40,284 nt of DNA from an uncultured bacterium (GTDB lineage Bacteria; Patescibacteriota; Minisyncoccia; Phycocordibacterales; CAIZLB01): positions 1-40,284 of the forward strand of contig CAIZLB010000011.1 in the NCBI GenBank assembly GCA_903933735.1. Reading direction: 5' to 3'. Within the stretch, counting starts at the first letter, position 1. Each line of letters starts with the position of its first letter. A program made the position numbers and the translations under genes. Positions 2,801 through 39,904 of this stretch are shown here, piece by piece. Below the pieces are notes generated by a model. It had not been told where the DNA came from. It saw only the letters and a list, made by a program, of their open reading frames with translations, and did no database searches.

Positions 2801-3367
2801 ATGGTAAGTATGAATGAAAACTACGAAATACCACAAGTACACTCTTTGGATCAGGTTGATAGTCATAGTAAATCTCAAGATAATGGCGAAAAAGCATTCG
2901 AAATACGAAAAGATTTTGCAGAAAAATACCCACTTTTATCAGAACGATTAGACTCTGAAGAAAAATGGGGTATCTTTCAAGCTGCTCTAGGGAGTAGAAA
3001 TGTTGAAGAAGATATTTTAGCAGAAGTGTATAATGATGTCATAAAAAGTCACTACGTAGAAGGTATACAAACAATTGTTTTTTATGGGTGGGATAGAGAT
3101 AAAAATGCTATTGATTTATATGGATGGGGATCAAAACCTGGTACTTTTAAGGCTATACGCACACTCGTTCATCATAGTGAAGAGGCGGTCAAACTTAACC
3201 GTACCGTTTTTCCTGATTACACCCTATCAATGAAATTTAATGACGGAACAGGGACACCTAGTGCAAAAAAGCTTTTTATAAGCTGGGAAACCCGAGAAGA
3301 TGTAAAAAAATGGTTAGAGACATTCAGAATGGGACATCTGCTTGAGCCATTTTTTGATGCAAAATAG
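2801..3367 (+). CDS. Hypothetical protein (188 aa)
   Basis: I do not recognise this protein. It is soluble and acidic, with no signal peptide or membrane helix. The first 35 residues are polar and probably disordered. A charged helical part (about 35-85) leads into a segment with IQTIVFYGWDRDKNAIDLYGWG that looks like paired beta strands. A C-terminal part ends in KKWLETFRMGHLLEPFF. The ATG at 2810 (fourth residue) may be the real start: a TATTAT hexamer at 2797-2802 sits 7 bases before it, the spacing seen for many genes here. The longer form from 2801 is given as the maximal frame. Confidence 0.6.
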   Translation: MVSMNENYEIPQVHSLDQVDSHSKSQDNGEKAFEIRKDFAEKYPLLSERLDSEEKWGIFQAALGSRNVEEDILAEVYNDVIKSHYVEGIQTIVFYGWDRDKNAIDLYGWGSKPGTFKAIRTLVHHSEEAVKLNRTVFPDYTLSMKFNDGTGTPSAKKLFISWETREDVKKWLETFRMGHLLEPFFDAK

Positions 3368-3407
3368 AATTATTTTATGATTTAAAAATTATTGCTATCA
3401 TACCCCC

Positions 3408-3968
3408 ATGTCCCCTACCCAATCATTTCTAAAAATAGCCAACACCTGCCCGGAGTTCAAAGAAGCAATTGATATAATAAAATCAAACTCAGAAGGACAG
3501 ATATGGCTCATCGGAGGCTTTGTCTGTCGAAGTATAATCCAGGACCTATATAACATCCACCTGAAAAAAGATGTAGACTTAGACTTTATCATCGAAATAC
3601 CAAAAGAAATAAAACTCCCCAAAGGTTGGAAGATGGAACGAAACAGCTATGGTAATCCAAAACTAATCGGACCAAAATATGAGATAGACTATATACCATT
3701 AAAAAGTATACATTCTATAATCAGACGAGGACTTGAACCAACAATAGAAAATTTTTTATCAGGAACGCCTTTAAATGTTCAGTCTATTATTTATGATGTT
3801 ACAAATGATAAAGTCATAGGTGATATAGGAATAAAGGCTATAGAGGATAAGATTGTCGCCGTAAACAACCCCGAACAGGCACAACACAGAGCAGAGAAAA
3901 AAGGTGTGAGTGTTGATGATCTGGTTATAGATATTGCTAATCAGTTTGGGTTTGAGGCGAGATTATAA
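3408..3968 (+). CDS. Nucleotidyltransferase-fold protein resembling a poly(A) polymerase / CCA-enzyme head domain
   Basis: 186 residues. The N-terminal part shows the nucleotidyltransferase pattern: IWLIGGFVCRS (GG at 36-37), then KDVDLDFII with metal-binding Asp candidates at 55, 57 and 59, and a third Asp at 94 (YEIDYI). The later RRGLEPTIENFL...LNVQSIIYDV...IGDIGIKAIEDK layout follows the head domain of tRNA nucleotidyltransferases and poly(A) polymerases. The RNA-binding neck, body and tail are absent, so it is a minimal version of unknown substrate. The extended -10 TGCTATCAT ends 6 bases before the ATG, so the transcript is probably leaderless. Two shorter proteins of the same broad fold lie downstream. 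Confidence 0.6.
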   Translation: MSPTQSFLKIANTCPEFKEAIDIIKSNSEGQIWLIGGFVCRSIIQDLYNIHLKKDVDLDFIIEIPKEIKLPKGWKMERNSYGNPKLIGPKYEIDYIPLKSIHSIIRRGLEPTIENFLSGTPLNVQSIIYDVTNDKVIGDIGIKAIEDKIVAVNNPEQAQHRAEKKGVSVDDLVIDIANQFGFEARL

Positions 3969-4009
3969 ACTCAAGACTATCCCCCTCTCCTATGCTACAA
4001 TGAAAAAAT

Positions 4010-4585
4010 ATGAAAAAAGGCATACTTATAATCATATTAATAGCAATCGTTGTGGTCATTTTTCATTTATATGAGATCATTCAACTTAAAACCCCTGACC
4101 TATATTCAAAATACGAATGGACATCTGTTGATGTAGGATCTCTAAAAGACAATAGACCTAATGTTTGGGTATTTCCATCATTTAATAATAAACAAAATTT
4201 ATATCCAGATGGAAAATTTTATAAGACAACAAATCCTGATCCATCTTTAGAAGGATGGAAGGTTGAAGACGAGCAATGTATAAAGAGACATGATGGTCCT
4301 TGTGGTTTTTACGGTGGTGATAATGATTTTATAAATTATTATGAAGATAATCTAGAAAAACTTGGATATACAAATAATGGTTTAAATATAGATAATGATT
4401 TACATATCGCTAAGGACGGTAAATACAATTTAACATTAGGAAATGCTGACGGACCTTATGGAACAACTAGGGTTTTTATTAAAAACCAAGGTGATCAAAT
4501 ACGCCTTGTTATTATTTCAAGTTATACAACTGAAAATACTGTGTTTATAAGTGATATTTTTACTCCAAAAGAGTTGATGAAATAA
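4010..4585 (+). CDS. Membrane-anchored extracytoplasmic protein of unknown function
   Basis: 191 residues. Residues 4-27 form one strongly hydrophobic helix after a Met-Lys-Lys start, with no obvious signal-peptidase site, so it is probably an N-terminal anchor with the rest outside the membrane. The outer part is Asn-, Asp-, Gly- and Tyr-rich and holds a close cysteine pair (CIKRHDGPC) that could form a disulphide. No family is recognised. The extended -10 TGCTACAAT ends 8 bases before the ATG (leaderless type). It is followed after 22 bases by a nucleotidyltransferase-fold gene. Confidence 0.65.
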   Translation: MKKGILIIILIAIVVVIFHLYEIIQLKTPDLYSKYEWTSVDVGSLKDNRPNVWVFPSFNNKQNLYPDGKFYKTTNPDPSLEGWKVEDEQCIKRHDGPCGFYGGDNDFINYYEDNLEKLGYTNNGLNIDNDLHIAKDGKYNLTLGNADGPYGTTRVFIKNQGDQIRLVIISSYTTENTVFISDIFTPKELMK

Positions 4586-4607
4586 AATATTTAAAAATCT
4601 ACACGAT

Positions 4608-5048
4608 ATGAATTTAATAGATGAAATAAAAAAATTAAACTTTCAAAGTGATGATTTTATCATAGTAGGAAGTGGCCCTATGGTAATACGTGGATTAAAA
4701 GAATTGAATGATATAGATATCATTGTTAGCAGAGAACTATTTGATGAATGCAAAAAAGATGATAGATGGAAACAAATTCCATGGACATATCCAGATCATC
4801 TTGGACAAATATATCTCGAATCTGAACCATTTGAATTATATCTAGATGTAAATTGTGGAGATTTTAATCCAACATTTGGAGAATTAATGAGTAGATCTGA
4901 TTTAATAGAAGGAATTCATTTTGCTTCAATAGAGGATGTACTCCGATTTAAGAAATCTTATAATAGGCCGAAACATGAGAAAGATATAGAAATAATAGAA
5001 GAATATTTATTGAATCATTCTTCATCAGATATTTCAGATATAATCTAG
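4608..5048 (+). CDS. Small nucleotidyltransferase-superfamily protein, paralogue of 6506-6946
   Basis: 146 residues. The pattern FIIVGSGPMVIRGL (GSG at 21-23), then NDIDIIVS (Asp 35 and 37) and ELYLDVN (Asp 80), fits the metal- and nucleotide-binding core of minimal nucleotidyltransferases. The C-terminal part has IEDVLRFKKSYNRPKHEKDIEIIEEYLLNH, quoted in shortened form as EDVLRFKKSYNRPKHEKDI. The protein at 6506-6946 has the same length and motif order. Relatives of this fold include MNT antitoxins, AbiEii-type toxins and aminoglycoside nucleotidyltransferases. No HEPN or AbiEi-like partner is adjacent, so a toxin-antitoxin role is not supported. The target is unknown. Confidence 0.6.
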   Translation: MNLIDEIKKLNFQSDDFIIVGSGPMVIRGLKELNDIDIIVSRELFDECKKDDRWKQIPWTYPDHLGQIYLESEPFELYLDVNCGDFNPTFGELMSRSDLIEGIHFASIEDVLRFKKSYNRPKHEKDIEIIEEYLLNHSSSDISDII

Positions 5049-5062
5049 AGAGTCCTATGGGT

Positions 5063-5563
5063 TCAAACCTGTAATAACTTTCTAACCCTTTCTTCAAATG
5101 TATTCATATGATAATGAAGTGGAAATGGTATAAGTAAACCATTATTTACCACATTAAACCCGTCAGCAAGGAGAGGTTTCTCAAGGAGTCTGAAAATATT
5201 TGACTTAACTAAAATAATAGGAGTCTTTGTATTTTTCATTATCGCGTTTAAATCTTTTTTAAAGTTTTCATAATTATCTAAAATCAGCCTATCCGCCTCT
5301 TTGTCTGGGAGCTTATTCACGGGAGTATAGATTGGATTCATTAAGACATATCCAGCATCTGCCAATCTTCTCAATCCTTCGTCTTTCGTAGCAGGTTTAA
5401 AATCAAGTATTGCTTTCATAAAAGCCCGAAACAAAACTTCTGACACTCTCCCTGTTGGATCATAGAAATATCCATGTCCAGCAGGAGGTGATTCTAAAAC
5501 AAAAATTGCCTTTATATTTTTAGGCATATAGTTGTTACGTAAAGAGATGAACTCTGATTCCAT
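5063..5563 (-). CDS. Uracil-DNA glycosylase-like fold protein, function uncertain
   Basis: 166 residues. AIFVLESPPAGHGYFYDP (ESPP at 24-27, FYDP at 33-36) looks like the first active-site strand and loop of the UDG-like superfamily, where a short motif after a beta strand precedes a Tyr or Phe that stacks on the base. PIILVKSNIFRLL and LIPFPLHYHMNTFEERV could be the later strand and the His-containing loop. Classical family 1 motifs (GQDPY, HPSPLS) are absent, so enzymatic DNA repair is not shown. TATACT with an upstream TGA ends 6 bases before the ATG. It is convergent with the nucleotidyltransferase-fold gene, whose stop is 14 bases away. Confidence 0.45.
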   Translation of the reverse strand: MESEFISLRNNYMPKNIKAIFVLESPPAGHGYFYDPTGRVSEVLFRAFMKAILDFKPATKDEGLRRLADAGYVLMNPIYTPVNKLPDKEADRLILDNYENFKKDLNAIMKNTKTPIILVKSNIFRLLEKPLLADGFNVVNNGLLIPFPLHYHMNTFEERVRKLLQV

Positions 5564-5614
5564 GTCATAAGTATATCAATAAATAGTGATTTTAAATATT
5601 CCCACCCCTCTTTC

Positions 5615-6355
5615 CTAAACCCTATAAGTCTCCAAATCCACCTTATTAAAATCAATCAAAACCTTTGCATCCAAATCATACTGACAATTTTGATATGGAT
5701 TTTCTGGCCAATTTAAATTAAAAGGATTTAATTGTTGTATATAAACCTCACTTTTTAGCGGCTTACCTGGATAACACCAAAGTATCCACTTTTGCTGATT
5801 TTCTACATATTCATTAGGAAGTTTTATTTGATTTTTACTAATTAAATACATCATAAGTACCTCTTCTAAAAAGAAATTAACCTGATTATCTTTAACCTCC
5901 CTTCCAAACGCCTCACAATCTTCTTCAATGTATTTCTGAAATTTCAAATCTTCTTTATAGAGTTTCTTTATTTTATCAAATAATCGATTAAAATCTGTTG
6001 TTCCAACGTATAATTGATTCCAAACCATATAATTAAATCCATGTTGTATTTGAAATGTTGTACAATTTTTCTCAATAATTCGTTGCAAACTATTTCTATG
6101 ATCTATTACTTGATTCATAAAAGAATGTTTCAGTTCTGGTGCAGGTCTGTCGCTATATAAATACAAGAAATCTCCATAAATAAAATTCAAGCCTATAAGT
6201 GGTTTTTTGACCTTGTCCGTTGCAAGTTTTTTAATATCTTCCATACAATTTTTAGCATTTTGCCTATTGCCTAATTTACTCATTGAGAGGCCGAAAATGA
6301 TTAAACCTTTTTCATCAGGAAGTTTATGAATATCACGAAATTTGTTTTTCTCCAT
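5615..6355 (-). CDS. Probable tRNA-dependent cyclodipeptide synthase (XYP-like)
   Basis: 246 residues, the usual length. Cyclodipeptide synthases take two aminoacyl-tRNAs and make a cyclic dipeptide, through a Ser-bound intermediate on a class Ic tRNA-synthetase-like fold. Visible parallels: LIIFGLSMSK after the first strand (candidate nucleophile Ser24, then Lys27 at the NYH-Asn position), a basic helix NSLQRIIEK, YKEDLKFQKYIEEDCEAF, FFLEEVLMMYL (catalytic Glu 164 or 165) and WCYPGKP (Tyr195-Pro196). The Tyr-Pro pair would place it in the XYP branch. Oddities: Phe replaces the usual Tyr four residues before the Glu, and the spacing to Tyr195 is about 10 longer than in AlbC. TGATATAAT ends 6 bases before the ATG. 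No tailoring oxidase is adjacent. Confidence 0.55.
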   Translation of the reverse strand: MEKNKFRDIHKLPDEKGLIIFGLSMSKLGNRQNAKNCMEDIKKLATDKVKKPLIGLNFIYGDFLYLYSDRPAPELKHSFMNQVIDHRNSLQRIIEKNCTTFQIQHGFNYMVWNQLYVGTTDFNRLFDKIKKLYKEDLKFQKYIEEDCEAFGREVKDNQVNFFLEEVLMMYLISKNQIKLPNEYVENQQKWILWCYPGKPLKSEVYIQQLNPFNLNWPENPYQNCQYDLDAKVLIDFNKVDLETYRV

Positions 6356-6505
6356 GATGAGATTATATCAAGAAAGTAAAAATTAATCTTGAGTGTTTAT
6401 CTTGGTCAGTATTTAGTGAATATAGTCCAAAAACAGTCCATATTCACTAATTTTATACGAAAGAATGCCATTTCTCGATATCTCCCCCTATGTTATCATA
6501 ACCCT

Positions 6506-6946
6506 ATGCCCACCTCAGAAAAGAAACCCATAAACCTCTATGAAGAGATAAACAAACTAAACCTACCCAAAGATCACTTCATGATCGTCGGTAGTGGTAT
6601 CATGTCCCTCAAGGGAATACGTGATTCTTATGATCTGGACCTAGTTATATCCGAGGAATTATTTGAGCAATTAAAAAACGGACCGGACTTCGAATTAAGA
6701 CCCTGGACCAGAACAGGCATAGGAAGAGAGTGGCTAAAGAACGACATAGCTGATCTAGTTGTGGACATGAGAATCGGGGATGAAATATATGATTTACAAA
6801 GACTAAAGTTGGAAGGTGAAAAAATAGATGATATGTGGTTTTTGAGTTTAAAACAACTTATAGATTTTAAAAGAGTTTACGGCAGACAAAAAGATTTCGA
6901 TGATATAGAGCTTATTGAGAGATATTTATTAAATCATATAAAATAA
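6506..6946 (+). CDS. Small nucleotidyltransferase-superfamily protein, paralogue of 4608-5048
   Basis: 146 residues from the chosen start. HFMIVGSGIMSLKGI (GSG at 29-31), YDLDLVIS (Asp 43 and 45) and ADLVVDMRIG (Asp 87) repeat the nucleotidyltransferase pattern of the paralogue, and both end in IERYLLNH/IEEYLLNH. The frame is open upstream to 6389, but the promoter decides the start: TGTTATCAT ends 6 bases before the ATG at 6506, so the longer version would begin before the transcript. The two copies are separated by the UDG-like gene and the probable cyclodipeptide synthase gene, both on the opposite strand. Substrate unknown. Confidence 0.6.
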   Translation: MPTSEKKPINLYEEINKLNLPKDHFMIVGSGIMSLKGIRDSYDLDLVISEELFEQLKNGPDFELRPWTRTGIGREWLKNDIADLVVDMRIGDEIYDLQRLKLEGEKIDDMWFLSLKQLIDFKRVYGRQKDFDDIELIERYLLNHIK

Positions 6947-6962
6947 TTTAATTACCGTAAAC

Positions 6963-6991
6963 TTTACTTTTTTACAAATTAGGAGTATTTT
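6963..6991 (+). promoter_or_regulatory. Promoter of the 7017 orphan
   Basis: TTTACT (6963-6968) and TATTTT (6986-6991) are 17 bases apart. The deduced leader of about 20-25 bases is A/C-rich, contains ACAACCGCACACAAAC and has no Shine-Dalgarno sequence. Confidence 0.45.
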
Positions 6992-7016
6992 TACCATGTA
7001 ACAACCGCACACAAAC

Positions 7017-7445
7017 ATGCCATTTATAAACAAAGATATATTATTAGCAGAATTCTTACAAGCTGTACGCAGAAGAATCTTACAATCCCAAAACGAGGAT
7101 GCTAGAATTTTCTTCGATAGCTTCTTAGGAAATCACCTACTTGAAGAGATAAAAGCGGATCTTCCAGACGACTGGAGCGGTTCGTTTAACGCTGGGGATT
7201 TTGACGAACTCTATCCGCTAGTAGCTGAAATACTTTTCGATGCCGCGACCCGAAATGACGGCGAAGGGCATGCAAATATTTACGAAGATGCAAGTGCAGT
7301 CTCTCTCGCTTTTTGCGAAGAGATGAATGAAGTATTCCAATGTTCTGGTAATGAAACCTTTATTTTCATACCTATCAAATCTTTTTCTGAAATTATGATT
7401 GAATCAGGTCGGGCCTTATCAGCAGACCAAGATAGTCAAGGATAG
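7017..7445 (+). CDS. Orphan soluble acidic protein (142 aa)
   Basis: I do not recognise this protein. It is acidic (DLPDDW, DFDELYP, EDASAVSLAFCEEMNE), probably mostly helical, without signal peptide or membrane segment. Its codons end in C or G more often than in the flanking genes and local GC is higher. It is a single gene with its own -35/-10 promoter and a strong GC-rich terminator, the same arrangement as several other orphans in this window. Foreign origin or selection for high expression could both explain the composition. Confidence 0.6.
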   Translation: MPFINKDILLAEFLQAVRRRILQSQNEDARIFFDSFLGNHLLEEIKADLPDDWSGSFNAGDFDELYPLVAEILFDAATRNDGEGHANIYEDASAVSLAFCEEMNEVFQCSGNETFIFIPIKSFSEIMIESGRALSADQDSQG

Positions 7446-7488
7446 ATTATCCCAAAAGAAGACTGATTGATTTCCTGTTCCACACAGG

Positions 7489-7523
7489 GCCACCTCTTGA
7501 CGACACAAGGGTGGCACTTTTTT
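7489..7523 (+). terminator. Intrinsic terminator of the 7017 orphan
   Basis: GCCACC plus CTTG (7489-7499, one bulged T) pair with CAAG plus GGTGGC (7506-7515), followed by ACTTTTTTT. Confidence 0.88.
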
Positions 7524-7573
7524 ATGAATATGAGAATTGAACAATCCCTAACAAACATATATAATTTAATCAC

Positions 7574-7822
7574 ATGAAATCAATAGAAAATATACCAAAT
7601 ATATATACTATACTTGAAAATTTTACAGAAGAATATAATATACCGCCATATGATAGTTATATATCATATTTTGACGTTAAGCCTGTTGGAGAATTAGACG
7701 AAAACATAACAGATGAAAATGAGAAAAATGAACCATGTCTTATAGTAAAACTCAGAGACAAATTACCTCCGGGTTTAGAAATACCAGCTTCATATAGAGG
7801 GACAAGGGTTTTTGTGAGGTGA
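7574..7822 (+). CDS. Hypothetical protein (82 aa)
   Basis: A short acidic protein. The C-terminal half, LIVKLRDKLPPGLEIPASYRGTRVFVR in full, has the alternating pattern of a beta hairpin ending in a short extended strand; PASYRGTRVFV is the most distinctive part. I do not know the family. A promoter is well formed: TTGAAC (7537-7542), 17 bases, TATAAT (7560-7565), then 8 bases to the ATG, so the mRNA is close to leaderless. The stop is TGA, evidence that UGA is not recoded here. Confidence 0.55.
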   Translation: MKSIENIPNIYTILENFTEEYNIPPYDSYISYFDVKPVGELDENITDENEKNEPCLIVKLRDKLPPGLEIPASYRGTRVFVR

Positions 7823-7827
7823 TTGAT

Positions 7828-8274
7828 TTATCTATTATAAACCCTCCCCGCTTTATAATTCTCCACAACCTTTTCACTTGGTTTAAACAAAGGACTTGGT
7901 AGATGATCCAGATCAAACCATTCCCACTTTGTTATCTCATCAGGCTCCATAACTTTAGCCTCACCTTCGAACTTTGTACAAAGTAAACCAATAGTCACAA
8001 AATGAGCATTCGGAACTATATCATTTGAAAGACTTATAACTTCTAAATCCTCTAACTCTATATGAATACCTGTTTCCTCCATAACTTCCCTTTGACCACC
8101 AGCTTCAAAACTCTCACCAAAATCCAGTTTACCACCAGGCATGGTCCAGGTACCTTCACCATTCATAAGACTTTGAGCCTTTTCAGGGTCGACATGTCTT
8201 TGTCCGAGTAGTATCTTATTATCTTTTAATATCATAACACCGAAACCAATTCCCATTTTTTTAGTTGTTTCCAT
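7828..8274 (-). CDS. Nudix hydrolase
   Basis: 148 residues. The Nudix box is intact: G48-x5-E54-x7-R62-E63-V-x-E66-E67-T-G-I, within GGKLDFGESFEAGG and QREVMEETGI. The preceding GTWTMPGG and following WFDLDHLP segments are typical of MutT/ADP-ribose-type Nudix enzymes that cleave nucleoside diphosphates linked to another group. Substrate cannot be told. The frame continues upstream to a TTG near 8349, but a TATAAT ends 6 bases before the ATG at 8274, so the shorter form is chosen. Confidence 0.88.
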   Translation of the reverse strand: METTKKMGIGFGVMILKDNKILLGQRHVDPEKAQSLMNGEGTWTMPGGKLDFGESFEAGGQREVMEETGIHIELEDLEVISLSNDIVPNAHFVTIGLLCTKFEGEAKVMEPDEITKWEWFDLDHLPSPLFKPSEKVVENYKAGRVYNR

Positions 8275-8356
8275 GGGTATATTATATAATATAGGTTTGA
8301 AATAATCGAATTTTCCGGATAGTTGAAAATCTCCCACAAAGATATACAATTAAATC

Positions 8357-8830
8357 ATGATTAATATAAACAAAGACTCTTTAAAAAACTTTATATTAGA
8401 AGCAAGTAGAGCAACTTATGCTTCAGGTAATGAATTTATAAAACAAAAACAAGAAGACGGTTCAACAACTATCGTATACGAGAACAGTGAATACAAATAT
8501 CACGATAACTATTTTGGAGGAGAACCCTATGGAGGAAGAGAGGTTATTTTTAAAGATAATAAACCTATATGGATGATGGTTTATTATGGTTTTGTTTATG
8601 AAAATATCGATAATAAAGAAGTTTACCCATTTCTGACAGAATCACTCAGTAGTTCAACTATCGATATGCCATATAGGGGTCCAGTTATACATATCAGAGA
8701 TAATTGGAAATATGAAAATAAATTTATAGGTGATGTTGATAAATTCTCAGGAACAGAGGAAATATTAAAAGATGGAGCATGTGTTTATGAAGCAAGTTAT
8801 ATAGGTGGTTTTGTGGATGTTACATCTTAG
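8357..8830 (+). CDS. DUF5680 domain protein
   Basis: 157 residues that match the DUF5680 pattern: an N-terminal FILEASRATYASG, then EYKYHDNYFGGEPYGGREVIF, PIWMMVYYGFVY and a C-terminal VYEASYIGGFVDV. The family is widespread, sometimes fused to helix-turn-helix domains, and has no known activity. Here it is the bare domain. TACAAT ends 6 bases before the ATG, so the transcript is probably leaderless. It is convergent with the DUF4105 gene, 11 bases apart. Confidence 0.8.
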   Translation: MININKDSLKNFILEASRATYASGNEFIKQKQEDGSTTIVYENSEYKYHDNYFGGEPYGGREVIFKDNKPIWMMVYYGFVYENIDNKEVYPFLTESLSSSTIDMPYRGPVIHIRDNWKYENKFIGDVDKFSGTEEILKDGACVYEASYIGGFVDVTS

Positions 8831-8841
8831 TTATTAAACCC

Positions 8842-9666
8842 CTACTCCCTAATCTTCACCGAAAAATCCTCCCTACCCCTATACAATCCACCCTTCTCAT
8901 TTACATGATATTTTAAACGAGCCTCTTGAAAAGTAAGATCGGTATCGATCAAACCCAAATCATAAGCCAATATATCAGAATTTGCCGGAAATAATATTCT
9001 AAAATCATACCAAGGTATAATCTTTGACGCTATAAGATTGACATGCTTAACCATATTTGTAGTACATGTATTTATCACAGTATTATAAAACTCTGGTTTT
9101 TCATAAAGTTTATTTACCCTATCTATAATACTCATGAACAATTCTTTGTTTTTTTCTGGACCTGATTTTATCGGATATATATATACTTCATCTTTTCTAT
9201 AATTTACATGAAAATCAACGATATCTCTTTCATCGGCCAAGACATATATGAGTTCATATTGATTCAATAAACCTTTCATGGGATGAAACAACTCCCCCTT
9301 CTCTTTTCTTGTTTCAATGGATACTGATAAGAAAACACCATCTTCAAACTCAAAACTAAAAAAAGTATGAGCTGACCCTGAAATACTTGAAAATGGTTCA
9401 ACTATATACCAAACTTTTTTAAGTTTATTCAAATCATATTTTCTATCATAATAATGTTCTGTGTATGATGTTGTAGAGGAATATCTAAAATCTCTAACAT
9501 TTTTTACATCGACTATATCACCTTCAACAGTAGCATGAGCCAAAACCTTTTGATCATTATTCCAATCCTTATCGTTTGAAGGTTTGATAAATAAATACAT
9601 GCCAACAAAAAACAGTGCGAGGAGGAAAATTACATTAAATATGATCTTGAAAAATAACCTGATCAT
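8842..9666 (-). CDS. Membrane-anchored DUF4105 (Lnb N-terminal-like) protein
   Basis: 274 residues. An N-terminal hydrophobic helix (about 7-27) anchors a domain outside the membrane. That domain shows the DUF4105 landmarks: VKNVRDFRYSS, a HTFFSFEFEDG strand, SVSIETRKEKGE, YELIYVLADERDIV, then FYNTVINTCTTNM. The conserved Cys in NTCTTN and the His in HTFF suggest a papain-like (NlpC/P60-related) hydrolase arrangement, which is inference from family knowledge. Substrate unknown. TGGTAAAAT lies about 10 bases before the ATG. Confidence 0.78.
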   Translation of the reverse strand: MIRLFFKIIFNVIFLLALFFVGMYLFIKPSNDKDWNNDQKVLAHATVEGDIVDVKNVRDFRYSSTTSYTEHYYDRKYDLNKLKKVWYIVEPFSSISGSAHTFFSFEFEDGVFLSVSIETRKEKGELFHPMKGLLNQYELIYVLADERDIVDFHVNYRKDEVYIYPIKSGPEKNKELFMSIIDRVNKLYEKPEFYNTVINTCTTNMVKHVNLIASKIIPWYDFRILFPANSDILAYDLGLIDTDLTFQEARLKYHVNEKGGLYRGREDFSVKIRE

Positions 9667-9695: not shown

Positions 9696-10556
9696 CTATA
9701 CCCCAATACACCATCTACCATTATGTCTAAATGCGGGAATGGTTTGTCTCTTAGCTTTATTGTATATATTATTTTTATCAAGATTAATATCAAGAGCATG
9801 TTTACTCAAGGATACAATATTTTTTCCTTCCAAATAAGCGATTCTTTTATTTAATGATTCCATAACAGCTAAGACCAACATTTTTTCAAAAATATCAATG
9901 TTTTCATCTAAATCATATTTTTTAAAAGATTCATAATACTCTTTTTTATCTATATCTCTAATAATTACCTGAGGAAAACCAGTATCAAGTAAAAGTAAGT
10001 TTATGATGACTCTACCTATACGACCATTACCATCACAAAAAGGATGTATACGCTCAAATTCTAAGTGAAATCTAGCTATCTTTTCCAAGACATAATTATA
10101 TGTATTGTGTTTATAATGTGATATATTTTTTTCAATCAAATCTTCTACATCTTCCGGATTTGGCGCTATATGCTTACCAACTCTAACAAATTCACCTTTG
10201 ATCCTAAATCTTCCTGCAATTTTATCGTCAATATTATCAATAAGCATTTTATGTAGAAATAATATGTTTTCCCTGTTTAAACGTAAATTATTTTTAAGAA
10301 ATTTATTAACTCTTGCTAGATTTTTAGCTTCAAATACCTCTCTGAGATTGAAACTTTTTTCCATATCTAATTCTGCCAATATCTGTTCGGTTTCTAATAA
10401 AGTCAAAGTTGAATTTTCTATAGCATTCGAATTATACACAGCTTCAGCTATTTCATTTTCATCAATCAAATCAAGCAGTTTTTCCTTATTTTGCTTTAAT
10501 TTATCATATCTTCTCTTTAAAACAGATATTTTGTTTTTGTAAAAATCGTTAATCAT
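9696..10556 (-). CDS. Fic-domain protein with built-in inhibitory helix and C-terminal DNA-binding-like domain
   Basis: 286 residues. The Fic core motif HPFCDGNGRIGR (171-182) is complete, so transfer of AMP to a protein hydroxyl is expected. The inhibitory motif S43-x3-E47-N48 in YNSNAIENSTLTLLE lies N-terminal to the core, as in class II Fic proteins that hold themselves off. Residues 247-286 (SLSKHALDI, NNIYNKAKRQTIPAF, HNGRWCI) look like an excisionase/MerR-type helix-turn-helix. The gene has a consensus promoter, TTGACA-16-TATACT, 9 bases before the ATG, wrapped by four symmetric copies of TTAACGAT. Self-repression by its own DNA-binding tail is a reasonable inference. Confidence 0.9.
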   Translation of the reverse strand: MINDFYKNKISVLKRRYDKLKQNKEKLLDLIDENEIAEAVYNSNAIENSTLTLLETEQILAELDMEKSFNLREVFEAKNLARVNKFLKNNLRLNRENILFLHKMLIDNIDDKIAGRFRIKGEFVRVGKHIAPNPEDVEDLIEKNISHYKHNTYNYVLEKIARFHLEFERIHPFCDGNGRIGRVIINLLLLDTGFPQVIIRDIDKKEYYESFKKYDLDENIDIFEKMLVLAVMESLNKRIAYLEGKNIVSLSKHALDINLDKNNIYNKAKRQTIPAFRHNGRWCIGV

Positions 10557-10635
10557 TATGTATTTAGTATACTTATTAACGATAAATTGTCAATAAATCG
10601 TTAACAATACCCTAGATTATGCACTTATTAACGAT
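10545..10635. promoter_or_regulatory. Four-site symmetric operator upstream of fic
   Basis: The octamer TTAACGAT occurs four times in alternating orientation: reverse at 10545-10552, forward at 10576-10583, reverse at 10597-10604, forward at 10628-10635. Centre-to-centre distances are 31, 21 and 31 bases, close to 3, 2 and 3 helical turns, and the whole array is symmetric about 10590. The first copy overlaps the fic start codon region. The longer ACTTATTAACGAT is repeated exactly at 10571-10583 and 10623-10635. Confidence 0.75.
10566..10593 (-). promoter_or_regulatory. fic promoter
   Basis: On the minus strand TTGACA (10593-10588) is followed after 16 bases by TATACT (10571-10566), then 9 bases to the ATG. 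Operator copies lie in the spacer and just upstream of the -35. Confidence 0.8.
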
Positions 10636-10652
10636 TTTACTCATACCTCAAA
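10635..10652 (+). repeat. 18-bp direct repeat, left copy
   Basis: TTTTACTCATACCTCAAA, identical to 11150-11167. The two copies are 515 bases apart and flank the small exported-protein gene at 10774-11097 with its promoter and terminator. Confidence 0.85.
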
Positions 10653-10773: not shown

Positions 10774-11097
10774 ATGAAAATTCTGACCCTTCTACTCTTA
10801 GTATTTATCAGCAATGTCGCCTACGGTAGCCTGACAAGATATGACCAATTTCAAGGTAAATTCACTCAAAAATCTGATGGTAAGGAGGTAATCATCCCTG
10901 AGCCTGAAGAGCGCATGGCCGAGATGGATACCATAAGACCAAAGCCGGGTACATACATCCTAGACAACCCTGATGTTATCGATAAAAGGATTGAGAGTCA
11001 GGGGAAAAAAGTAGTGAGTCGTACGTCATTGATGTTATATAAAGCATGTACTGTCATACTGGTCCTAAGTCTACTATTTGGACCCAAACGAAAGTAG
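10774..11097 (+). CDS. Small exported, membrane-anchored protein (family member 1)
   Basis: 107 residues. Residues 1-18 form a signal peptide (MKILTLLLLVFISNVAYG) with a likely cut before SLTRYDQF. The exported part is hydrophilic and ends with PKPGTYILDNPDVIDKRIESQGK; a C-terminal hydrophobic helix (about 87-102) is followed by PKRK. The same plan and the motif PGTYIL-x2-P-x-V are found in the protein at 35149-35493, and the plan again at 39907-40167. The exposed part would lie outside the membrane with a short cytoplasmic tail. Function unknown. It is monocistronic with its own promoter and terminator, and is flanked by 18-bp direct repeats. Confidence 0.72.
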   Translation: MKILTLLLLVFISNVAYGSLTRYDQFQGKFTQKSDGKEVIIPEPEERMAEMDTIRPKPGTYILDNPDVIDKRIESQGKKVVSRTSLMLYKACTVILVLSLLFGPKRK

Positions 11098-11117: not shown

Positions 11118-11153
11118 GATCCGCGACACCTCGTCCGCGGATCATTTTCTTTT
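11118..11153 (+). terminator. Intrinsic terminator after 11097
   Basis: GATCCGCG (11118-11125) pairs perfectly with CGCGGATC (11136-11143) around a 10-base loop, followed by ATTTTCTTTT. Confidence 0.88.
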
Positions 11154-27517: not shown

Positions 27518-28192
27518 TTAGGCCGTGGCCCGAGCCTTGAATGAGTTCAAAAGCATCTGGTTAGGAGCCGGGATGGTTGGTCGATCGCACCTTACGTAAC
27601 GATTGTCATCCCCTTTCTTTTCCCACAGACCGCAACGGAGGTTTTCGGTAGGGTCGTCCTCCAGTGTAATGGTTAGCCGCCGGACAATCTCCTTCAGACT
27701 CCCGGCTAGGATATGACCTAGGGCGTTCACCCGGTATTTATTCGGGTCTTCAACCGCCTCAGGAACCACATCGAACTTGAACGTCGATTTCTTCGCAGCT
27801 TGACGCCTTGTATTAGGTGAAGATTGTACGAAAGTATTCTTCTTCGCCTCTAGTAATTCCACAACGCTGTCGAAATCAGCCTTCGGGCCAAAGCCGATGA
27901 TTTTAGGATTCTCCTTGGACCCAGGGGTCCAACTGATGAGGCAGGCGTACTGCTTGCCGTCAAACATTTCTTCCCAGCGTCCGGTGTAATCAAAGCAGAT
28001 CGGCTGTTTGTCGCCACTGACACCGATACGAATGATGGCCTTTTTCTGGTTGAAAGGATATTCCAAGCATTGCCCGATGAGAGCTTCGAATCCTCTACCA
28101 ATTTGAACCCAAGTGAACTCGAGCTCGTTGGTTTCGTCACTGATGGCAATGCAGGTAACTGTGACCTGCCCAATCTTCGCTGATGTTTGCAT
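27518..28192 (-). CDS. Orphan protein with GC-rich coding sequence (224 aa)
   Basis: I do not recognise this protein. It is soluble. The first 110 residues look beta-rich (AKIGQVTVTCIAISDETNELEF, AIIRIGVSGDKQPICFDYTGRW), a basic linker follows (NTRRQAAKKSTF), then a helical and beta C-terminal part with IVRRLTITLEDDP and CGLWEKKGDDNRYVRCD. The coding GC is far above that of its neighbours, with many C- and G-ending codons, suggesting recent transfer or a different expression class. The start MQTSAK at 28192 follows from the promoter at 28288-28260, which would lie inside a longer frame. Confidence 0.6.
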   Translation of the reverse strand: MQTSAKIGQVTVTCIAISDETNELEFTWVQIGRGFEALIGQCLEYPFNQKKAIIRIGVSGDKQPICFDYTGRWEEMFDGKQYACLISWTPGSKENPKIIGFGPKADFDSVVELLEAKKNTFVQSSPNTRRQAAKKSTFKFDVVPEAVEDPNKYRVNALGHILAGSLKEIVRRLTITLEDDPTENLRCGLWEKKGDDNRYVRCDRPTIPAPNQMLLNSFKARATA

Positions 28193-29225: not shown

Positions 29226-29912
29226 ATGCAAAAATACAACAGTGCCTTACGTGATAAAAATGCAGACGAACTTATCGCTCGTATTAAAGAGCAGACGAAT
29301 ATCGAGAGCTTATATGATTTGATACAACAAGATATCTATATTGGACACAAGGTTCATGAATGCGGAGCAGTATTTATGGATAGACTGGTCGAGCTAGCCG
29401 ACACTGAAGAAAAAGTCCTCATTGCAGTACTGACACTCCAAGGATCTTGGACTAAGAGATATTTTTGTCATTACATGAGTCGTAGTTCACAAAGAGTATT
29501 CTGGCACATTGCCCCATACTTTAAAAAATTAGGTGTACTTGATGAGGATGAGAAACCAGATTATGTTACCGAACATACACACAAATCACCGTCTCAAGAA
29601 AAATTAACAGAGGTGATTGATCAGATAAGAAAAAGATATTGTAGATTTATCAACACTTTCGATGGTAAGAAGATGAATACATTGATAAGGTTGGTAGATA
29701 AACTAGATTCATATCATGTTTGCAGGCTGATTTTTACAGAATCGAGAAGAGATGGATCAGGTGACGCTCTACTCAAAAAGATGTGTGAGTATGCGGTGAG
29801 TGTAGATGAATTATTTTACTGCATCAATGCCATATTTTCCAATAAAACAAGAAGAGGAAAATTCAAGAAAGAGTTGAGGGGACTACTTGGAAAATTCCGA
29901 AAGGTGGCCTAA
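29226..29912 (+). CDS. Orphan basic helical protein (228 aa)
   Basis: I do not recognise this protein. It is soluble, basic and apparently all-helical, with a repeat-like pattern of helices (LIARIKEQTNIESLYDLIQ, VLIAVLTLQGSWTKRYF, LIRLVDKLDSYHVCRLIF, LKKMCEYAVSVDELFYCI). It ends in a highly basic tail (FKKELRGLLGKFRKVA). The even spacing hints at an alpha-solenoid, but no family motif is clear. It is a single gene with -10 TATAAT, a leader of about 57 bases and a very strong terminator. The leader shares AAGCATAGT and CCAAGAAC with that of the small exported protein at 35149. Confidence 0.6.
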   Translation: MQKYNSALRDKNADELIARIKEQTNIESLYDLIQQDIYIGHKVHECGAVFMDRLVELADTEEKVLIAVLTLQGSWTKRYFCHYMSRSSQRVFWHIAPYFKKLGVLDEDEKPDYVTEHTHKSPSQEKLTEVIDQIRKRYCRFINTFDGKKMNTLIRLVDKLDSYHVCRLIFTESRRDGSGDALLKKMCEYAVSVDELFYCINAIFSNKTRRGKFKKELRGLLGKFRKVA

Positions 29913-34412: not shown

Positions 34413-35009
34413 ATGAAATATAATACATACATAGAACAAAAATTTATAATACCAGAACTTAAAGGTATATCTGCAAAAACCATAGAAGAACATCTAAAAC
34501 TTTATTCAGGATATGTAAAACATACAAACCTTATATTGCAGAAAGTTGATGAACTTTCGAAAACACCAGAGGATACCACTGCAAACTTATATCTTATAGG
34601 AGAACTTAAAAGAAGATTAGGTTTTGAGTTTGGAGGAGTAAGAAATCATGAATATTATTTTGAGCAGTTTGAAGGTGGTTTTAAAGAGATCAATACAGAG
34701 TCTAGTTTATACAAGAAGATTGTTGAGACTTGGGGATCATATGAACAGTGGCTTCTAGAGTTTAAGAATTTGGCAATGACACGTGGTATAGGCTGGGCGT
34801 TTTTATATATGGATGAGAAGAATAATAATCTTGTGAACACTTGGGTCGGAGAGCAGCATGATGGGCATCTGACAGGGCTTAAACCAGTATTGGCGCTTGA
34901 TATGTGGGAGCATTCGTATATGTTAGATGTGGTCCCGTCAGAGAAGAAGAAGTATGTTGAGGCGTTTTTTGAAAATGTTAACTGGGTGGTTGTTGAGGGG
35001 AGGGGGTAG
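34413..35009 (+). CDS. Iron/manganese superoxide dismutase
   Basis: 198 residues. It turns superoxide into oxygen and peroxide. GFEFGGVRNHEYYFEQF holds the second metal His, and the signature LALDMWEHSYMLD holds the Asp and third His. WGSYEQWLLEFKNLAM and GIGWAFLYM are typical. The N-terminal helix IEEHLKLYSGYVKHTN has the expected first His, but the spacing to the active-site Tyr is one residue shorter than in E. coli SodB and the second His of HH is replaced by Tyr-Ser. Metal choice cannot be told. The leader is A-rich with no Shine-Dalgarno sequence, and a terminator follows. Confidence 0.9.
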   Translation: MKYNTYIEQKFIIPELKGISAKTIEEHLKLYSGYVKHTNLILQKVDELSKTPEDTTANLYLIGELKRRLGFEFGGVRNHEYYFEQFEGGFKEINTESSLYKKIVETWGSYEQWLLEFKNLAMTRGIGWAFLYMDEKNNNLVNTWVGEQHDGHLTGLKPVLALDMWEHSYMLDVVPSEKKKYVEAFFENVNWVVVEGRG

Positions 35010-35022
35010 GAAATGAAGAGAT

Positions 35023-35045
35023 CTCGGCGAAAGTCGAGGTTTTTC
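35023..35045 (+). terminator. Intrinsic terminator of superoxide dismutase
   Basis: CTCGGC (35023-35028) pairs with GTCGAG (35033-35038) around a GAAA tetraloop, followed by GTTTTTT. Confidence 0.85.
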
Positions 35046-35066
35046 TTTTGCACAGTGATGCGATGT

Positions 35067-35095
35067 TGACACATGTGACTAATTATTATATTGTA
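35067..35095 (+). promoter_or_regulatory. Promoter of the small exported protein at 35149
   Basis: TTGACA (35067-35072), a 17-base spacer and TATTGT (35090-35095). The leader of about 47 bases is A/C-rich, includes AAGCATAGT (35111-35119) and CCAAGAAC, and has no Shine-Dalgarno sequence. Confidence 0.7.
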
Positions 35096-35148
35096 TATCC
35101 ACCCGAGGTGAAGCATAGTGCCTAACCAAGAACCAAACCATCCAAATC

Positions 35149-35493
35149 ATGAAAAACATCGTTATTAGTACCCTCATCGGATTACTCACCATTACCGCCT
35201 CAATTGCAGCGACGAGAGAATATGAGAGTTTTGCCATACCCTTCAAGCAGAGCAAGGATGCCGAGAGGGTTCTTATCGAGATACCCTCATTACCTGTAGA
35301 TTACAAATATGGCATGCTATTCCCAGAACCTGGCACCTATATCCTCAACAAGCCTGAGGTGCTGAAGAGGGAGATTGAGAGAACCGGAACTTACTATGTC
35401 TATCCAAAATTTTTCGTCATCACAACATTTATAGCTGTAGTTATTTTAGTGATAGTCTTTGCATTCTCTACCATAGGGTTCAAAAAAAACTAA
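35149..35493 (+). CDS. Small exported, membrane-anchored protein (family member 2)
   Basis: 114 residues. A signal peptide (MKNIVISTLIGLLTITASIA) with a likely cut before ATREYESF is followed by an exported part with PEPGTYILNKPEVLKREIERTG, then a C-terminal membrane helix (about 86-107) and GFKKN. The motif PGTYIL-x2-P-x-V-x4-I and the overall plan match the protein at 10774-11097, so the two are paralogues. The mature N termini also share an R-x-Y pattern. Function unknown; a surface or host-contact role is only a guess. It is a single gene between superoxide dismutase and comEC, with its own promoter and terminator. Confidence 0.72.
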   Translation: MKNIVISTLIGLLTITASIAATREYESFAIPFKQSKDAERVLIEIPSLPVDYKYGMLFPEPGTYILNKPEVLKREIERTGTYYVYPKFFVITTFIAVVILVIVFAFSTIGFKKN

Positions 35494-35513
35494 CTCCTTC
35501 TTCACCCCCCAAC

Positions 35514-35541
35514 CCCGAGCCTAACCGGCTCGGGTATTTTT
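35514..35541 (+). terminator. Intrinsic terminator of 35149-35493, overlapping the comEC stop codon
   Basis: CCCGAGCC (35514-35521) pairs perfectly with GGCTCGGG (35527-35534) around TAACC, followed by TATTTTTT. The comEC stop codon on the other strand (35523-35521) lies in this hairpin. Confidence 0.9.
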
Positions 35542-39736: not shown

Positions 39737-39769
39737 AAACTCCGGGCTGATTTTCACAGCCGGGAGTTT
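39737..39769. terminator. Bidirectional terminator after the HIT gene
   Basis: AAACTCC and GGCTG (39737-39749) pair with CAGCC and GGAGTTT (39757-39769) with one G-G mismatch. The A run before serves the minus-strand genes that end at 39782. Confidence 0.82.
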
Positions 39770-39781
39770 GGAGGATGGAAT

Positions 39782-39904
39782 TCATTCTTCACCCTGAGGG
39801 TTTCCTAACACACTCATGATAAACAAGACTATGCAACAGACAACGATAAATATCAGAAACTTTCCCCCAAAAGACAGGGAGGCAATCATAGGTATAATAT
39901 TCAT
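39782..39904 (-). CDS. 40-residue membrane microprotein
   Basis: A short open frame, ATG at 39904 and TGA at 39784-39782. It encodes MNIIPMIASLSFGGKF, then a hydrophobic helix of about 20 residues (LIFIVVCCIVLFIMSV) and a polar end (LGNPQGEE). It begins 2 bases after the stop of the small exported-protein gene and is followed by the two-way terminator, so it is probably the second gene of that transcript. Support is the clean membrane helix and tight spacing; no homologue is known to me. Confidence 0.5.
   Translation of the reverse strand: MNIIPMIASLSFGGKFLIFIVVCCIVLFIMSVLGNPQGEE

Follow-up and report, generated by a model that had tools for sequence, protein, structure and literature searches.

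Do the small exported membrane proteins encoded in this 40,284-nt stretch of DNA (the window) belong to a large gene family of their lineage, and how did their genes come to lie where they do? An earlier note had grouped three of them into one lineage-specific family, with many more copies expected in the genome. All three open reading frames are present and encode 107, 114 and 86 amino acids (P1, P2 and P3, respectively). A heuristic of our own, and not SignalP or TMHMM, predicts for each a signal peptide with cleavage after residue 18, 20 or 21 and a single hydrophobic helix at the C-terminus. The genes and their parts are as follows.

10774..11097, + strand: P1, 107 aa, with signal peptide, exported part, C-terminal membrane helix and basic tail; GC3 0.43
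10774..10827, + strand: predicted signal peptide of P1, residues 1–18 (heuristic)
10945..10962, + strand: PGTYIL of P1 (sequence)
11026..11082, + strand: predicted C-terminal membrane helix of P1 (heuristic)
11118..11143, + strand: terminator-like hairpin 3′ of P1, GATCCGCG/CGCGGATC then ATTTTCTTTT (read from the sequence; its loop of 10 exceeds the limit of the hairpin scan)
35107..35148, + strand: A/C-rich leader of P2, resembling the leader of an orphan gene at 29226
35149..35493, + strand: P2, 114 aa, homologue of P1, with superoxide dismutase (SOD) and ComEC genes on either side; GC3 0.49
35149..35208, + strand: predicted signal peptide of P2, residues 1–20 (heuristic)
35329..35346, + strand: PGTYIL of P2 (sequence)
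35410..35466, + strand: predicted C-terminal membrane helix of P2 (heuristic)
35514..35534, + strand: terminator-like hairpin 3′ of P2
39907..40167, − strand: P3, 86 aa, with the architecture of P1 and P2 and a sequence unrelated to theirs
39782..39904, − strand: 40-codon ORF with one hydrophobic stretch, directly 3′ of P3, a possible operon partner (read from the sequence)
39745..39761, − strand: terminator-like hairpin 3′ of the P3 unit

All three proteins score positive for a Sec-exported single-pass plan, that is, a cleavable signal peptide plus one stop-transfer helix. Because these calls come from a rule-based heuristic that some ordinary two-helix proteins also pass, and not from a trained predictor, the export architecture is to be read as a prediction. 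When the same architecture was sought across 470 kb (57%) of the genome, P1, P2 and P3 were the only clean cases; the other proteins returned were L187, which is longer and has a PEP-like tail, and a handful with several helices. Structure models were of low quality (mean pLDDT 56 and 68).

P1 and P2 are homologous in their exported parts (z = 14, with 0/10,000 shuffles reaching the score; exported parts only, score 90 vs. a shuffle mean of 24, 0/10,000; pairwise BLASTP E = 1e-10). The pattern PGTYIL-x2-P-x-V-x4-I, noted earlier as common to two proteins, is exact in both. Since the score holds in the exported parts and with PGTYIL masked (51 vs. 21, z = 7.5, 0/5,000 shuffles), the likeness reaches beyond the hydrophobic ends, to which the earlier note had allowed that it might be confined. 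Identity by codon position (0.48/0.53/0.30) fits two diverged coding copies. The proposed family of three, however, does not extend to P3, which is related to neither protein: 6% of shuffles reach the score of its exported part against P1 and 12% against P2. Two other proposed shared traits do not stand. The R-x-Y described just after the cut is found in P2 and P3, while P1 has R-Y; and each gene has a 10-of-12 sigma-70-like site upstream, but the numbers of such sites per region are close to those in shuffled sequence. The three upstream regions are not convincingly alike (p about 0.05–0.2), and we rejected a promoter common to all three. On sequence grounds, P1 and P2 are a real family of two members and P3 is an independent orphan with the same architecture.

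The expectation of many more copies was not borne out. A P1+P2 profile run over the whole 822,592-base genome matches exactly two places, P1 and P2 themselves. There was no credible match in the 148 closest genomes, nor in the sets of 397 genomes from the order and 380 from the phylum (the three sets overlap), so that neither this genome nor its close relatives yielded a further member by sequence search; the family is lineage-specific to the extent of being known from one genome only. Neither protein matched anything in Pfam, NCBIfam, PHROGs, PADLOC or PDB, nor in contigs of bacterial genomes; P1+P2 had none among viral contigs, P2 none among plasmids and P1 none among phage records. The best outside match (G374, E = 9e-6) falls in a YchF-like GTPase ORF, in its C-terminal part, and the alignment passes through the stop codon of that ORF; we judged the match to be chance. 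P3 likewise has no accepted relative in its own genome, the 148 relatives or the family libraries; one match at E = 0.004 was dismissed because it crosses two stop codons. A profile built from only two short sequences has little power, and very distant relatives of P1 and P2 could therefore be missed; at the sensitivity used, these comparisons show P1 and P2 to be unique to this genome. With two of the proteins related, the third not, and none in the other genomes searched, what we have is probably not a large gene family but a few strain-specific surface proteins that a tiny Nomurabacteria-like bacterium acquired recently.

Composition and upstream sequence set these genes apart. Against a core-codon GC3 of 0.25, P1 has 0.43 (bootstrap p = 5e-5), P2 0.49 (p < 5e-5) and P3 0.37 (p = 0.01); contiguous core stretches reach GC3 values up to 0.48, with 1.2% of them at or above 0.43. 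Across the sampled genome, genes with GC3 ≥ 0.38 also have leaders richer in A+C (mean 0.69 vs. 0.56, p = 2e-5). We observed an accessory class of genes with raised GC3, an A/C-rich leader (CAACAACACAAC... ATG), often made of CAA or CCAA runs, and no Shine-Dalgarno motif. Examples in this genome (G000) are these.

L175:13953-14957, L182:838-1392 and L187:9775-10377, with further examples in L065 and L177
window 29226 and 35149 (the latter being P2)

By thresholds picked after seeing the data and with crude gene calling, A/C-rich leaders precede 29/283 genes here, 3/163 in the two nearest genomes (G001 and G002) combined and about 4/502 in other Paceibacteria loci. P2 fits the class fully, in GC3, leader and lack of a Shine-Dalgarno motif; P1 and P3 fit by composition and likewise lack the motif, with milder leaders (A+C 0.70 and 0.67). 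The P2 leader specifically resembles the one in front of the orphan gene at 29226, with a score of 44 where the highest of 500 shuffles was 39. We dropped a leader-like match at the beginning of L051, since about 300 nt separate it from the gene start that follows.

We then compared gene order with G001 and G002, which are about 73–75% identical to this genome at RecJ. The two correspond to contigs labelled Candidatus Nomurabacteria (CALRFG01) and Candidatus Parcubacteria (JACMMR01); going by these nearest relatives, the genome is Paceibacteria/Nomurabacteria-like, and an epibiont setting is plausible. Gene order around the window is conserved in both, and P1, P2 and P3 occupy variable slots flanked by conserved genes, where the sisters have other orphans or nothing. 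In the gap between the SOD and ComEC genes, where this genome has P2, G001 has an unrelated orphan of 169 aa whose leader is A/C-rich, and G002 a ClpP-like gene that resembles phage head-maturation proteases. Between the flavoprotein gene and the gene at 8842-9666, this genome has a 92-aa ORF, P1 and a Fic gene; the flavoprotein side of this region measures 28 bp in G001 (nearly closed) and holds a 69-aa ORF in G002. Next to the HIT gene are P3 and the 40-codon ORF here, a 132-aa membrane ORF in G001, and in G002 this membrane ORF and also an unrelated 142-aa ORF with the P3 architecture; the P3 end of the window is the end of the contig, and this slot is therefore seen only in part. Positions that bear on the slots and on other variable places in the window are listed here.

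window 34995-35520, L046:12007-12516 and L048:1921-2475: SOD–ComEC gap, with three unrelated genes in three sister genomes
10635..10652, + strand: 18-nt direct repeat TTTTACTCATACCTCAAA, left of P1
11150..11167, + strand: the other copy of this repeat, on the right side of P1 (spacing 515 nt)
window 2801-8830: island of small genes between a tRNA/YqgF region and the gene at 8842, missing at the equivalent places in G001 and G002
window 27518-28192: orphan gene, GC3 0.54, inserted between rpsL and a TrmB-like regulator, with no relative in the 148 genomes

The 18-nt repeat occurs in these two copies only in 470 kb of the genome, and as an exact flanking pair it may be a trace of insertion or recombination, or a shared operator. 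Flanking repeats were discarded as a general insertion footprint, since P2, P3 and the other cassettes lack them, and we claim no general integration mechanism from a pair seen only at P1.

Taken together, we read P1–P3 as membrane-anchored surface proteins, the gene for each having been acquired horizontally as a cassette of its own. That P1 and P2 are diverged copies of one family, and that all three are accessory genes with their own terminator-like hairpins in variable slots, likely acquired horizontally, has in our estimate a probability of about 0.6. Acquisition, export and topology are what we infer, and function is a guess. The signal peptide would direct each protein to Sec export and then be cleaved; the C-terminal helix would halt transfer, leaving the short tail inside and the protein anchored in the single cytoplasmic membrane, with a domain of roughly 30–70 residues outside. 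Such a domain would act at the cell surface, and our guess is that contact with other cells or the blocking of phages is most likely; the host or neighbor contact suggested in the earlier note is speculation. Each gene would be an autonomous cassette in a variable slot, and uptake of free DNA is a possible route given the ComEC and PilM/PilO-like genes of the window (names assigned by eye). Because no donor sequence was found, the argument for acquisition is one from composition and patchy presence, and fast-evolving native orphans could give a similar picture.

One such alternative is that P1–P3 are native, fast-evolving orphan membrane proteins that were duplicated in the lineage and lost or made unrecognizable in the sisters. 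Two copies in one genome speak for it, as does the unrelated ORF of the same architecture in the P3 neighborhood of G002, but it is made doubtful by the deviant GC3 of P1 and P2 and by the slots, which in G001 and G002 are occupied by other genes or nearly empty. It is hardly credible that the ORFs are spurious: they are short, lack homologues outside the genome and have a weak coding score, yet P1 and P2 are conserved in protein above third-position DNA with signal peptide and helix intact in both, and terminator-like hairpins lie 3′ of the genes.

Acquisition could also have taken a more specific form than the one we prefer. Phage moron membrane proteins are encoded in small, autonomous transcription units, and P1–P3 could be comparable genes from prophages or phage remnants, altering the surface and excluding other phages. 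Single genes with terminators and deviant GC3 agree with this, as do a prophage-like region of GC3 0.40-0.56 in the same genome (L191) and the phage head-maturation protease-like gene in the P2 slot of G002. Against it, no phage genes adjoin P1–P3, none of the three has a match in PHROGs or PADLOC (known phage and defense families), and the searches of phage records with P1 and of viral contigs with P1+P2 were negative; we consider a moron origin unlikely. The genes might instead derive from a diderm partner bacterium, possibly the host, and now serve as surface proteins for contact with it. The lineage is expected to lack an outer membrane, and the same genome has a TorF-porin-like gene, a duplicated exported L,D-transpeptidase-like protein and a PEP-CTERM-like tail, all of high GC3, while relatives have genuine PEP-CTERM proteins without exosortase. 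P1–P3 themselves, however, are not PEP-CTERM proteins, the diderm records searched contain nothing homologous to them, and a partner origin is accordingly improbable. Verrucomicrobiota as a donor were set aside, as the single plasmid checked (Opitutaceae) lacks A/C-rich leaders. The loci named here are the following.

L191:9800-19900: prophage-like region (methylase and terminase-/portal-like ORFs by eye), GC3 0.40-0.56
L191:5258-5968: TorF/Gcw_chp porin-like protein (below curated cut-offs) with signal peptide, GC3 0.65
L054:842-2212 and L186:250-1545: duplicated exported pair, one lipoprotein-like and one YkuD L,D-transpeptidase-like; the lipoprotein-like member resembles L071:771-1307 of G001 (by eye)

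Among characterized systems, PEP-CTERM/exosortase proteins are alike in having a signal peptide, a variable exported part, a C-terminal helix and a basic tail, with high diversity and little homology (PMC1569441). In contrast to them, P1–P3 have no PEP motif directly before the helix; FPEPGTYIL of P2 lies about 20 residues before it and is followed by charged residues. Membership was rejected, as G000 has no TIGR02595 match at E ≤ 0.1, and an exosortase (PF09721) was found in 0/15 genomes of the family, G000 included. The genome search did place proteins above the TIGR02595 cut-off in G001, G003 (two), G007 and G009, three of which are homologous to one another; two further Paceibacteria loci also encode one above it.

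L193 (G001:C5:14959-15027), L192 (G007), L194 and L196 (G003) and L195 (G009): PEP-CTERM signals in relatives
L114:6739-7524 and L149:10115-10945: PEP-CTERM signals in other Paceibacteria

Scanned as whole proteins, L192, L114 and L149 pass again and L196 falls just below the cut-off; with a signal of no more than 24 positions, any one assignment is weak. In a pattern control over 1.9 Mb, the PEP tail occurred 3 times, 3/3 with a signal peptide, and 14 substitute motifs occurred once in total. Haft et al. 2006 (PMC1569441) reported PEP-CTERM to be confined to bacteria that have both an outer membrane and EpsH, and no paper on PEP-CTERM in Patescibacteria was found in the literature searched. 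PEP-CTERM in Paceibacteria without exosortase thus seems to break the co-occurrence rule as published.

Up to 13% of genome length in Patescibacteria has been attributed to transfer (mSystems 2025, PMC12455944). P1–P3 resemble the orphan genes and genomic islands described there as patchy, horizontally exchanged genes in streamlined genomes, but they are single small exported-protein genes of one genome only; that method needs a donor in the data set, whereas P1–P3 have no known donor. They resemble phage morons as small autonomous units, but have no phage neighborhood or phage homologue. In the accessory genomes of Patescibacteria, an orphan family of two small surface proteins is nothing unusual. 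By their composition, by the type of their leaders and by the polymorphism of their slots, P1, P2 and probably P3 fall into a larger, partly exported set of acquired genes, and it is this set that leads to the PEP-CTERM proteins without exosortase, which contradict the published restriction to bacteria with an outer membrane and EpsH. The hosts of uncultured epibionts could become easier to identify if genes of this kind were traced. A broader proposal would unite PEP-CTERM without exosortase, proteins resembling porins and transpeptidases, and small anchored orphans (P1–P3) in one lineage-specific surface repertoire: freshwater Paceibacteria would acquire these exported proteins from diderms, each gene in a cassette of its own with an A/C-rich leader, and display them for host contact. 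We regard this proposal as very unlikely.

Two observations concern regulation in the window. Repeated inverted ATCGTTAA...TTAACGAT sites lie over the Fic gene promoter (window 10543-10637), and the Fic gene product ends in a weak HTH-like stretch, which together suggest autoregulation. Finally, many window genes (e.g., those at 1957, 6355, 7574, 39245 and 39269) have TATAAT-like boxes only 5–12 nt before the start codon, a spacing that suggests leaderless mRNAs in this lineage.
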